Shown here: positions 15,733-19,262 of the stretch, one piece after another
Layout: the number at the start of each line of letters is the position of its first letter
How positions within the stretch are numbered: position 1 is the first letter of the stretch
Origin: an archaeon
Lineage (GTDB): Archaea; Thermoproteota; Nitrososphaeria; Nitrososphaerales; Gagatemarchaeaceae
Length of the DNA: 50,559 nt
NCBI GenBank assembly: GCA_021796515.1
Contig: JAKACC010000005.1
Span: 1-50,559 of the forward strand
Reading direction: 5' to 3'
The notes under the pieces: generated by a model
What the model saw: the letters and a program-made list of their open reading frames with translations, nothing else
What the model was told of the DNA's origin: nothing
Database searches by the model: none
Program-made: the position numbers and the translations under genes

Positions 15733-16308
15733 CTACTTCCGTATCGCGGCTTCGAACCCTGCCAGGTTCTGCGGCCGGAGATAGGCGCCGTGAGCCATGG
15801 CTGCGACGTCCCTCAGCTCCCCCGACGCGCTGTTCGAAAGCTCGATGACGTCCACCACGACCGAGGAGCCGCCCAGCTCGTCAGCCACGGTCTTGGCAGG
15901 GGGCCCGTCGTTCCCTCCGTCGCTTATCAGCTTCACCACCTTTTCCTTCCTCATCGAGTCTGACGTGCTCTTGATCCCATATCTGAGGGCGTCGGCCAGC
16001 GGGCTCCCGCCCCTGCAGCCAGCCTCTTCTAGTCTGTAGAGCTCGAGCGAGGCAGGAGGCGGGTTGAGCGGCACCACGACCTCTATCTGCGTGGAGCCCG
16101 GTGTCCCGAGGAGGCGGTAGAACGAGATCCCCATCCTTATCGGCCAGGGGAAGTACGACACGGGCCAGTGTTCGGCGATGTAGTTCGTCAGCCCGGTCTT
16201 CACCATCTCCATCTTGCTCATCCCGGACGACTTCAGCTTCCCCCCCATGCTCCTGGAACCGTCTATGACGAAGATGACGTCTCTCGCCTTGGACTCGTCG
16301 TAGCTCAT
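15733..16308 (-). CDS. von Willebrand factor A domain protein
   Basis: MIDAS-like DVIFVIDGSRSMGGKL, GCRGGSPLADALRYG, VVKLISDGGND; start trimmed to MSYDESKARD. Confidence 0.85.
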   Translation of the reverse strand: MSYDESKARDVIFVIDGSRSMGGKLKSSGMSKMEMVKTGLTNYIAEHWPVSYFPWPIRMGISFYRLLGTPGSTQIEVVVPLNPPPASLELYRLEEAGCRGGSPLADALRYGIKSTSDSMRKEKVVKLISDGGNDGPPAKTVADELGGSSVVVDVIELSNSASGELRDVAAMAHGAYLRPQNLAGFEAAIRK

Positions 16309-16337
16309 TGCCGACGTTACGTCCACACCAACAAACG

Positions 16338-16346
16338 TATAAAAAA
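16338..16346. promoter_or_regulatory. TATAAAAAA element apparently shared by two divergent leaderless transcripts
   Basis: AACGTATAAAAAAGATGG; centre about 26 nt from TTG 16368 (+) and about 34 nt from ATG 16308 (-). Confidence 0.6.
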
Positions 16347-16367
16347 GATGGAAGGCGAGGTGCAACG

Positions 16368-17732
16368 TTGGCGTTCAAGGTAGCTAACCAGGCTCCTCTT
16401 GCCCCCAACCCGGTGATAATGGCGTGCATGGGGCATGCAGGCGTAGGGATAGGCGCAGAGGCGTACAGGTGGGTCCTCGTCGACGTCGGGGCCAATCCGA
16501 GCGCCCCGACCCTCAAAGGAGAGAAGCAGCAGCTCGAGGTCCTGAGGAGATATGGGAGCACGATACTGAGATTCGGCGCCTCGCTCCGCAGGGGAGAGAC
16601 CCCGCTTGTTCCGCGGGCTCTTCTGGTAGACCTGGACCCGCGTTCTGCCAACCTGATACTTCAGTCGTACCCTCAGCTCTTCGCGATGAAGGACAAGCAC
16701 GCGGTCTACGGGCTTGGGGGCGCCGCGAGGAACTGGGCTGAAGGGCGCGGAAGGTTCAGGAACGAGATAGTCGGTAAGCAAGACATCGCGTCGAGGATTC
16801 AGGCGATTTCACCGGAACCTGTGAGGGGCTTCATAGTCCCCTTCAGCATGGGTGGAGGAACCGGGGGTTCCTTCTCTTCGGAGTTCATGTCGTATGTCAA
16901 GGAGAGCCCGACCCTGGGTCACGCCACCATCGCCACCTTCGGGGTCCTCCCGGAGATAGGGTGGGACCCGATCATCTACGGGCCGGCGCACATCAGTGTT
17001 GTGCTGAACATGGCCTACCAGATCCGATATTCGGACGCTCCCATCCTTATGGACAACAAGGAGCTCCGTTTCCAGGCTGACAAGCTCAAGGGGATGCTCG
17101 ATTCACGTTCGTCCATCGTCGACGAGCTGCCAAAGCAGATCCGAGTCGGGTGGCACGACTACCGAGACATGAATCTGCTGGCTGCCCACGTGATAGCAGA
17201 GTTCATGGACTCGTTCATCCGAGAGACCGAATGGGACATGTCCAACTACAGGACCTGGCTCGCTGCTAGCAAACCTAAGTTCGTGGTCCCGTGGCTCATC
17301 CCGCTCGTCCCCAAGGGAGGGTCCGACATCAAGGCCGTCGAACAGGCCCTAGACGAAGGGAACGACGGGTTGCTCTTCGACCTCTCCCAGGACGGAGAGA
17401 TCGAGAAGGGGAAGACCGATTCTGCCTGCGTCCTAGTCAAGAGCAGCTCGCGGCTGACAGCCGAGAACAGGGAATTCTTCAAGAAGCTGCTCGCCGACAA
17501 GTACGGCATCCAGGACAAGCGGGTGATTTTCATCAAGATCCCTACCCTTCCAGGGGAGCCCGCCTCTGTCCTCATCCTTCTCAATATCAAGGGGATCAGC
17601 AAGAAGCTCCTCCCTCTCATCGCCGAAGCCGAGGACGCATGGGACTCGTACAAAGACGAATACCAGACCAGGAACCTGACCCACGAGGAGTTCAAGAAGG
17701 CCGTGATCGAAGTCTCCAGTCATCTGGGTTAG
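16368..17732 (+). CDS. Tubulin/FtsZ superfamily GTPase with eukaryotic-tubulin-like motifs
   Basis: MACMGHAGVGIGAEAYRW (cf. GQAGxQIG), RALLVDLDPRSANLILQSYPQLFAMKDKHAVYGLGGAARNWAEGRGRFRNEIV, FSMGGGTGGSFSSEFM (GGGTGSG motif), VVLNMAYQIRYSDAPILMDNKEL (H7-like). Confidence 0.88.
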   Translation: MAFKVANQAPLAPNPVIMACMGHAGVGIGAEAYRWVLVDVGANPSAPTLKGEKQQLEVLRRYGSTILRFGASLRRGETPLVPRALLVDLDPRSANLILQSYPQLFAMKDKHAVYGLGGAARNWAEGRGRFRNEIVGKQDIASRIQAISPEPVRGFIVPFSMGGGTGGSFSSEFMSYVKESPTLGHATIATFGVLPEIGWDPIIYGPAHISVVLNMAYQIRYSDAPILMDNKELRFQADKLKGMLDSRSSIVDELPKQIRVGWHDYRDMNLLAAHVIAEFMDSFIRETEWDMSNYRTWLAASKPKFVVPWLIPLVPKGGSDIKAVEQALDEGNDGLLFDLSQDGEIEKGKTDSACVLVKSSSRLTAENREFFKKLLADKYGIQDKRVIFIKIPTLPGEPASVLILLNIKGISKKLLPLIAEAEDAWDSYKDEYQTRNLTHEEFKKAVIEVSSHLG

Positions 17733-17738
17733 GGGAGT

Positions 17739-18296
17739 TTGGACCTCACCGAGCTGGAAGTCGAAGCCGGGCGGCTCTTGGACGAGCAGCGGAGGCTAAG
17801 GGCGATAGATGCCGAGCTCGAAGCGCTCTCTCAGGAGATCAAACAGGACCCGAAGCGGAACGAAAAGGACAAGGCGTTCTATGCGCTGATAGGGATGGAC
17901 TGGTCAGACCCGGGGCACCAGGATCGGGCTTCCGTCCTGAGGAAAGAGAAGGAAAGCGCGCGTCGGGCCATCGGCGAGGTCCAGCACAAAGTCCTGGAAG
18001 GGCTCAGCTCCAGCGGGCTCGTGATCCCCCTCGACCCGTCCCCCTCTAGGTCAGAGGGCACCAACACATTCGGGTTCAGATCAGGAGCGACCTTCCCGAA
18101 GACCGTCGAAGGGCTCTCTGCCATCCTGGGGATCCCTTCTCCTCTGAAGATCGGGGACGTCACCATCTACGGCGACCGAGTAGAGGTGGCAGACTCGGAC
18201 GAGTACTTTGCGAAGAAGAAGCTGGTGGACGCCTTCGACGACGTACGAAAGGCCGTCAGGCGGAGGCTCGCGTCGCAGCCGGAAGGCAAACTTTAG
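17739..18296 (+). CDS. Uncharacterised protein with N-terminal coiled-coil
   Basis: LTELEVEAGRLLDEQRRLRAIDAELEALSQEIKQDPKRNEKDKAF; starts 6 nt after the tubulin-like stop codon. Confidence 0.75.
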   Translation: MDLTELEVEAGRLLDEQRRLRAIDAELEALSQEIKQDPKRNEKDKAFYALIGMDWSDPGHQDRASVLRKEKESARRAIGEVQHKVLEGLSSSGLVIPLDPSPSRSEGTNTFGFRSGATFPKTVEGLSAILGIPSPLKIGDVTIYGDRVEVADSDEYFAKKKLVDAFDDVRKAVRRRLASQPEGKL

Positions 18297-18326
18297 AATT
18301 CAATCAACCCAGGTGGGGCCGGTATC

Positions 18327-19262
18327 GTGTCAACCGTAAAGCGAATCACGGGTCTCTTTGACAGGATGCGAGGCCCTCTTAGCAAGATTACCAGTAGCAC
18401 GGCTTTCCCCAAGGACGACGAGCTGGCGCAGGCGGTCATCCAGCGGATAGAGGTCGACGGCGAAGATTACACTGCGCCTCCCACCTATGGAGACCACGAG
18501 CTGACGTGCAAGCGCCTCGTGCGCCGGCTAGACTGGCAGCTCAAGAATTCGGGGATAACCGTCGAGGAGCTGATAAAGTCCTATCCGGGCGAAGTCAAGG
18601 CCCTCCTGCTGCTGAAATCCTACGAGAGGTCAAAGAGTAAGAAGGAGTCAGTGAGCCTCAGAGACAGGCTCATTGCCATGGGTTTCAAGCTCATCCAGTC
18701 CGGGGTCTGGATTTTGCCGCCCACCAAGACTCTCGCGGGGCTGGACAGCCAGGAGTCGTTGAAGCTCTGGTTCAGGCAGGAGATGTCAAAGCAGGTGGGA
18801 AAGCAAGTAGACTACGTGTTCCCGTTCGTCGCCCTGGTCGACCTGAAGAAGACGGTCTCCGAACGCAGAGGTATAAGGAAGATGCCTGTCGCCAGGACTC
18901 TTTTCGCAGTGCTTTCTCTGGAAGAGGTGGTCCCCTACAGCCACCTCTACGCTACCATGAAGTCCAGGGGGCTCTCTGCCAAGGACATCGTCCTCTCGGG
19001 GGACGTGCCCTTTCTCGCGAGCGCGTTCGCCGACGGCGGGGACCTTGAAGGGATCCACCTCCACGACCTGGAGGTCGGCCAGAACCTGAGACGTCTGACA
19101 GGCGCTGCCAGCATCGACCTGGAGGGGCTGGCGAACCTGGGACCGGACACCATAGCCAAGGCACTGGATGGAGTGGTGGCCCACCCGAAGGACTTCGCCC
19201 AGAGGCTGATCGTCGAAGCGCAGTATTGGATGAGGTTCCTGGGCGGAACGGTTCCGTCCTAG
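18327..19262 (+). CDS. Uncharacterised protein, module partner of the tubulin-like gene
   Basis: 311-aa ORF, same strand, 30-nt gap; no family recognised. Confidence 0.72.
   Translation: MSTVKRITGLFDRMRGPLSKITSSTAFPKDDELAQAVIQRIEVDGEDYTAPPTYGDHELTCKRLVRRLDWQLKNSGITVEELIKSYPGEVKALLLLKSYERSKSKKESVSLRDRLIAMGFKLIQSGVWILPPTKTLAGLDSQESLKLWFRQEMSKQVGKQVDYVFPFVALVDLKKTVSERRGIRKMPVARTLFAVLSLEEVVPYSHLYATMKSRGLSAKDIVLSGDVPFLASAFADGGDLEGIHLHDLEVGQNLRRLTGAASIDLEGLANLGPDTIAKALDGVVAHPKDFAQRLIVEAQYWMRFLGGTVPS

Follow-up and report, generated by a model that had tools for sequence, protein, structure and literature searches.

An artubulin gene, its general partner and two family-specific partners in a movable four-gene block of an archaeal genome

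The window analysed here is a stretch of 50,559 nucleotides (assembly GCA_021796515.1, contig JAKACC010000005.1, positions 1 to 50,559) from an archaeon of the family Gagatemarchaeaceae in the ammonia-oxidiser class Nitrososphaeria, with a genome of 1.5 Mb that is 96% complete. Between the ribosomal protein genes S28e and L24e, it carries a block of four genes encoding a von Willebrand factor A (vWA) protein (15733-16308, minus strand, ATG start, 191 aa; Pfam VWA, 1.8e-6), a tubulin-family GTPase that is, by its sequence, an artubulin (16368-17732, plus strand, TTG start, 454 aa), and two uncharacterised proteins, U1 (17739-18296, plus strand, 185 aa) and U2 (18327-19262, plus strand, 311 aa). 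The block is a real, movable unit, with a gene order far beyond chance. U1 is a general partner of artubulin; the vWA protein and U2 are confined to a single family of archaea. An earlier sequence-only reading of this DNA had named the four genes and their ribosomal flanks, all of which are present, and had placed the vWA and GTPase genes head-to-head; its spacings of 6 nt before U1 and 30 nt before U2 are exact. The head-to-head arrangement held; both start codons were revised from conservation among relatives. The vWA gene starts at 16308, a position conserved in relatives, and not at 16365, and the artubulin gene starts at 16368 (TTG) and not at 16308, two relatives having ATG there. The corrected starts leave the two genes free of overlap and 59 bp apart.

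The divergent intergene contains a TATA-like element, CAAACGTATAAAAAAGA (16332-16348), whose distance to the start codons is ~26 nt for artubulin and ~34 nt for vWA. Alignment of 15 intergenes showed hardly any variation in the element across most of the genus, against a drifting background in the rest of the intergene; the element had diverged in two loci (L045 and L046). It is presumably a shared promoter serving both directions, and the vWA and artubulin transcripts are probably leaderless. To the left of the block are L7Ae (14997-15383, plus strand) and S28e (15380-15598, plus strand), and to the right are L24e (19355-19537, plus strand), NDK (19510-19953, plus strand) and aIF5B (19980-21770, plus strand), all outside the module; the first four were assigned by Pfam, and aIF5B by reading and conserved order. 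A TATA-like sequence read ahead of L24e-NDK-aIF5B, TTTATATT (19302-19309, plus strand), probably gives these genes their own promoter, so that the module is probably transcribed on its own. An Rfam search found no elements. A metagenome-assembled archaeon (JAJZOO010000013.1) encoded proteins identical to those of the window throughout the module region.

Artubulins are tubulin-family proteins already known from Thaumarchaeota, where they were described in 2012 (Yutin and Koonin, PMC3349469). The GTPase is thus not a new tubulin and represents a divergent artubulin branch. Its membership of the tubulin family was borne out by Pfam (Tubulin PF00091 at 4e-10, with no second significant family), by profile matches in the PDB and by a full-length alignment to alpha-tubulin. 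A profile of 11 relatives matched a Heimdall tubulin best (5e-21), followed by a Lokiarchaeal tubulin (5e-17) and then by gamma, beta and alpha tubulin. The best 60 PDB matches were all tubulins or tubulin-like proteins, and none was named FtsZ. The hhalign comparison with alpha-tubulin (98%, 387 columns, 23% identity), for which the alpha-tubulin sequence was confirmed against the PDB, reached into the C-terminal domain. These sequence and profile data support a tubulin fold. The same genome contains further FtsZ/tubulin-family (PF00091) genes elsewhere, as well as one weak Snf7 match.

A scan covering 84,980 prokaryotic species, with one genome for each, kept 80 loci with artubulin relatives. 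All 80 were on thaumarchaeal contigs, including those of Nitrosotalea, Nitrosotenuis and Nitrosarchaeum, although a few records bore uninformative or wrong organism labels. One such record (L109), labelled Gammaproteobacteria bacterium BBSC-SA02, holds a Nitrosotenuis-type artubulin locus and is probably a mislabelled or contaminated contig. The window artubulin shares 51-54% identity over its full length with the Nitrosarchaeum/Nitrosotalea type, and its branch forms a separate clade with full support. The proposal that this branch is nearest to eukaryotic tubulin was dropped, as scores against alpha and beta tubulin singled out no branch. In a survey of 330 genomes of the class Nitrososphaeria that were at least 80% complete, the artubulin profile matched 77, of which 75 were genuine; the matches in the other two (G042 and G056) were short and lay inside unrelated frames of 900 residues. 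The presence of artubulin was patchy. Several congeners lack the gene, which is therefore not essential. One genome (G038) carries two artubulin-U1 pairs (L047 1868-3247; L048 8741-10123), possibly a heterodimer-like duplication.

U1 was identified as a companion of artubulin by co-occurrence and adjacency. It was present in all 75 artubulin genomes and lay directly downstream of artubulin in every locus uncut by a contig end; in the two genomes with artubulin and U1 on different contigs (G268 and G224), the separation is due to contig ends. The genes upstream of artubulin vary by clade and include vWA, Snf7, Nre, SHOCT/TPR and others. Pairwise distances of artubulin and U1 across 80 loci matched closely (r = 0.98), a correlation that shared ancestry alone can yield. 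Three genomes that have lost artubulin (G048, G264 and G127) retain U1 only as stop-bearing fragments in otherwise recognisable surroundings (L153 2031-2595; L154 7856-7987; L155 7614-8163). The association of U1 with artubulin as its general partner is well supported by this co-occurrence, linkage and joint loss. The AlphaFold model of U1 (predicted local distance difference test, pLDDT, 89.8) comprises a long antiparallel coiled-coil hairpin (helices 3-50 and 60-91) and a small alpha/beta domain (103-178). A Foldseek search of the model against the PDB returned nothing at E<=0.001, and a Spc24-like assignment (Pfam E 0.14) was dropped as it had no PDB match at that level. In one genus (f2), a conserved gene of ~100 aa follows the U1 relative.

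U2 was found in 15 of the 330 genomes, which are exactly the 15 artubulin carriers of the window's family (f1). It was absent from the 12 listed genomes of this family without artubulin and from all genomes outside the family. In two carriers (G035 and G031), U2 lies on a different contig from artubulin. The chance of such a 15-versus-12 split is ~6e-8 (1 in 27 choose 12), uncorrected for relatedness. The N-terminus of U2 contains an amphipathic basic helix (residues 4-14), which is kept even in a homologue with 40% identity; its helical moment of 0.72-0.89 falls at about the 94th to 99.7th percentile relative to the N-termini of neighbouring open reading frames (ORFs). This helix is a candidate membrane anchor. 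No SepF, FtsA or other Pfam/NCBIfam homology was detectable in U2, and a PaaX_M match of 24 residues, below the cut-off, was dropped. Of the 15 family members with artubulin, 14 also encode the vWA protein, and in the remaining one the contig ends inside artubulin; a relative was present in one of the 12 genomes without artubulin. The motif of the vWA protein that resembles a metal ion-dependent adhesion site (MIDAS) is intact (DGSRS at 16, matching DxSxS; GGSP at 100; SDGG at 129). Hydropathy analysis of this protein indicated neither a signal peptide nor a transmembrane segment.

Every artubulin-bearing locus retrieved from congeners showed the four genes in collinear order. The site in the genus is the junction between S28e and L24e; in two genomes (G033 and G016), the whole block is found elsewhere, flanked by the genes for lysyl-tRNA synthetase and CDC48. 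In four relatives without artubulin or the module (G003, G002, G025 and G034), S28e and L24e are 13-137 bp apart, which agrees with the proposal that the module was inserted into the ribosomal protein block. The neighbourhood comparison likewise upheld the view that the four genes belong together. Unrelated ORFs fill the same junction in other genomes, and several of these resemble, by eye, LAGLIDADG homing endonucleases (L160 2300-3400; L165 2700-3720; L167 400-1860; L168 1940-4100), which marks the junction as an insertion hotspot. On the question of a viral or defence origin, IMG/VR held no relatives of artubulin or U1, PADLOC gave no match and PHROG gave no meaningful match. A tRNA search bearing on the origin of the insertion found none. 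The aIF5B gene of several congeners is interrupted at the P-loop, near residues 22-39, by ~1.5 kb of extra sequence that is probably an intein (L030 5560-7109; L032 5409-6949; L035 12854-14355; L036 5470-6971); the aIF5B of the window has no such insert.

The GTPase-family motifs of the window artubulin are T1 (GHAGVGIG, 22-29), DLDPR (88-92), AARNWAEG (119-126), T4 (GGGTGGSF, 162-169) and T7 (RETEWDMSN, 285-293). The tubulin signature GGGTG[SA]G was present in 0 of 87 loci; the T4 motif instead reads GGGTGx[SA]F. The T7 motif was invariant in 85 of the 87 loci and was not found in the other two, truncated loci among them. In the profile alignment, EWDMSN corresponds to NVDLTE of alpha-tubulin, with Asp251 retained and the catalytic Glu254 replaced by Asn, and the tubulin T7 pattern NxDxxE is absent. 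In alpha-tubulin, Glu254 hydrolyses GTP across the subunit interface. The natural prediction is that GTP hydrolysis by artubulin would be slow or partner-dependent. With the T4 signature missing and T7 lacking the catalytic Glu, the name 'true tubulin' used in the sequence-only reading is too strong.

We marginally favour the explanation that these genes encode an artubulin system, consisting of a GTP-binding tubulin-family protein and its dedicated partner U1, joined in one family by U2 and the vWA protein. We infer as follows how these proteins bind, assemble, attach to the membrane and act in the cell. Artubulin would form GTP-dependent protofilaments with slow or partner-dependent turnover, because Asn replaces the GTP-hydrolysing Glu at the subunit interface. 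U1 would bind artubulin through its alpha/beta domain or its coiled coil, and may cross-link, cap or nucleate the filaments as an archaeal tubulin-associated protein. The N-terminal amphipathic helix of U2 would tether the filaments to the membrane from inside the cell, as SepF and FtsA do for FtsZ, and the vWA protein, made from the shared divergent promoter, may act as a cytosolic, metal-dependent adaptor. The system would shape or remodel the membrane as a dispensable accessory to FtsZ/Cdv division. A wider proposal, which we offer tentatively and with some doubt, is that artubulins may be the core of a non-Asgard archaeal tubulin cytoskeleton, with U1 as an obligate binder across Nitrososphaeria and, in one family, a self-contained, movable and membrane-anchored module of artubulin, U1, U2 and vWA with one bidirectional promoter.

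Several points weigh against the artubulin system as proposed. The co-occurrences were counted over related genomes, and the chance value for U2 ignores phylogeny. The structure model of U2 is poor (pLDDT 57), and an amphipathic N-terminus can serve other purposes. Intact, full-length U1 relatives occur without artubulin in the f2 genus, and a short C-terminal form of ~130 aa occurs in f8 genomes without artubulin (loci L140-L144 and L145-L151 for both forms together), so that the U1 domain may have another, older role. Two residues of the T7 motif, E286 and E288, could stand in for the lost acid. The available literature yielded no biochemical data on any artubulin.

The loss of the catalytic Glu also fits a different account, in which artubulin is not a polymer but a switch or regulatory scaffold, a GTP-binder with a dead T7 loop that joins U1, vWA and U2 in a small complex. 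Such a complex could, for example, govern how another machine is put together, a task that vWA proteins carry out with AAA+ partners. This account, which we consider rather unlikely, is favoured by the Asn found in each of the 85 sequences spanning the T7 loop, by the altered T4 motif and by the intact MIDAS-like motif, and in two genomes the block adjoins the AAA+ gene CDC48. However, CDC48 is a neighbour at that one site only and is a common gene. Beta-tubulin has Lys at the catalytic Glu position and polymerises nonetheless, and the strong conservation of the T7 and H8 region is as expected for a subunit interface.

A role with the endosomal sorting complex required for transport III (ESCRT-III, Cdv) in cell division was proposed from the Snf7 gene beside artubulin in Nitrosarchaeum (PMC3349469). 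In our loci, Snf7 was immediately upstream of artubulin only in the Nitrosarchaeum type. The window has vWA in this place, its family and the other clades examined have vWA, Nre, TPR/SHOCT or other genes, and the absence of the Snf7 neighbour had already been noted in Nitrosotenuis (PMC3835317). One genome that has lost artubulin (G127) keeps its Snf7 gene. A class-wide partnership of artubulin and Snf7 was therefore unsupported by the gene neighbourhoods, and joint action with ESCRT-III appears improbable. A passenger origin, in which the four genes were inserted as mobile or neutral cargo without joint function, is very improbable: although the S28e-L24e hotspot with its LAGLIDADG-like ORFs and the patchy presence of artubulin would suit it, no tRNA or viral signal was found, the same four genes recur at a second site, and the idea is largely refuted because U2 co-occurs with artubulin even when unlinked and U1 trails artubulin across Nitrososphaeria despite changing neighbourhoods.

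The artubulin system that we favour gives a first concrete list of artubulin partner proteins, with U1 general, and U2 family-specific and present even where unlinked. Snf7, the sole neighbour reported so far, is confined to one clade and is superseded by U1, found in 75 of 75 genomes. Small soluble proteins lend themselves to direct tests in vitro, and the prediction on GTP hydrolysis is clear. The literature searched, which did not extend to supplements and most subscription journals, contained no earlier account of the universal U1 link, the U2/vWA module or the T7 observation, and the available artubulin papers yielded nothing on function or binding partners. Artubulins have been discussed since 2012 as possible ancestors of eukaryotic tubulin, and a long branch has left them unplaced in tubulin trees (PMC13394414). 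The divergent window branch may help to break it.

Among known systems, the sequence-only reading had pointed to the association of FtsZ-like and vWA genes (FtsZl1/Tubulin_2-vWA; Makarova and Koonin 2010, PMC2875224). The likeness stands insofar as a tubulin-superfamily gene lies beside a vWA gene with an intact MIDAS, and both systems include lineage-specific uncharacterised genes. It fails in that the window has no Tubulin_2 domain (only PF00091 was found in the 27 members scanned), no OmpA-like protein, no kinase and no second GTPase, the Pfam/NCBIfam searches of U1 and U2 having found no such domains. The window vWA protein, unlike its counterpart, is soluble by prediction and divergently transcribed. 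As these defining features are missing, the FtsZl1/vWA system is at most an analogy. SepF and FtsA tether FtsZ to the membrane, and the proposed tie of filament to membrane through an amphipathic-helix partner, here U2, is the likeness to that system, although U2 has no detectable homology to either protein.

The Asgard tubulins (AtubA/B and Heimdall; PDB 9f6t, 24rt) are the closest solved sequences to the window artubulin and share with it the blocks PRA-VDL-P and AA-NWA-G. Single-sequence similarity stops after the GTPase domain, and T4 and T7 of artubulin are unlike those of tubulin. The Asgard proteins form microtubules (PMC13394414), whereas filaments of artubulin are a prediction. The artubulins of Nitrosarchaeum and Nitrosotenuis (PMC3349469; PMC3835317) belong to the same family, share the T1, T4 and T7 motifs and come from the same archaeal class. 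The window form differs in its separate, supported branch, in its vWA and U2 partners and in having no Snf7 neighbour; the Nitrosarchaeum-type loci have U1 directly downstream of artubulin, as in the window.

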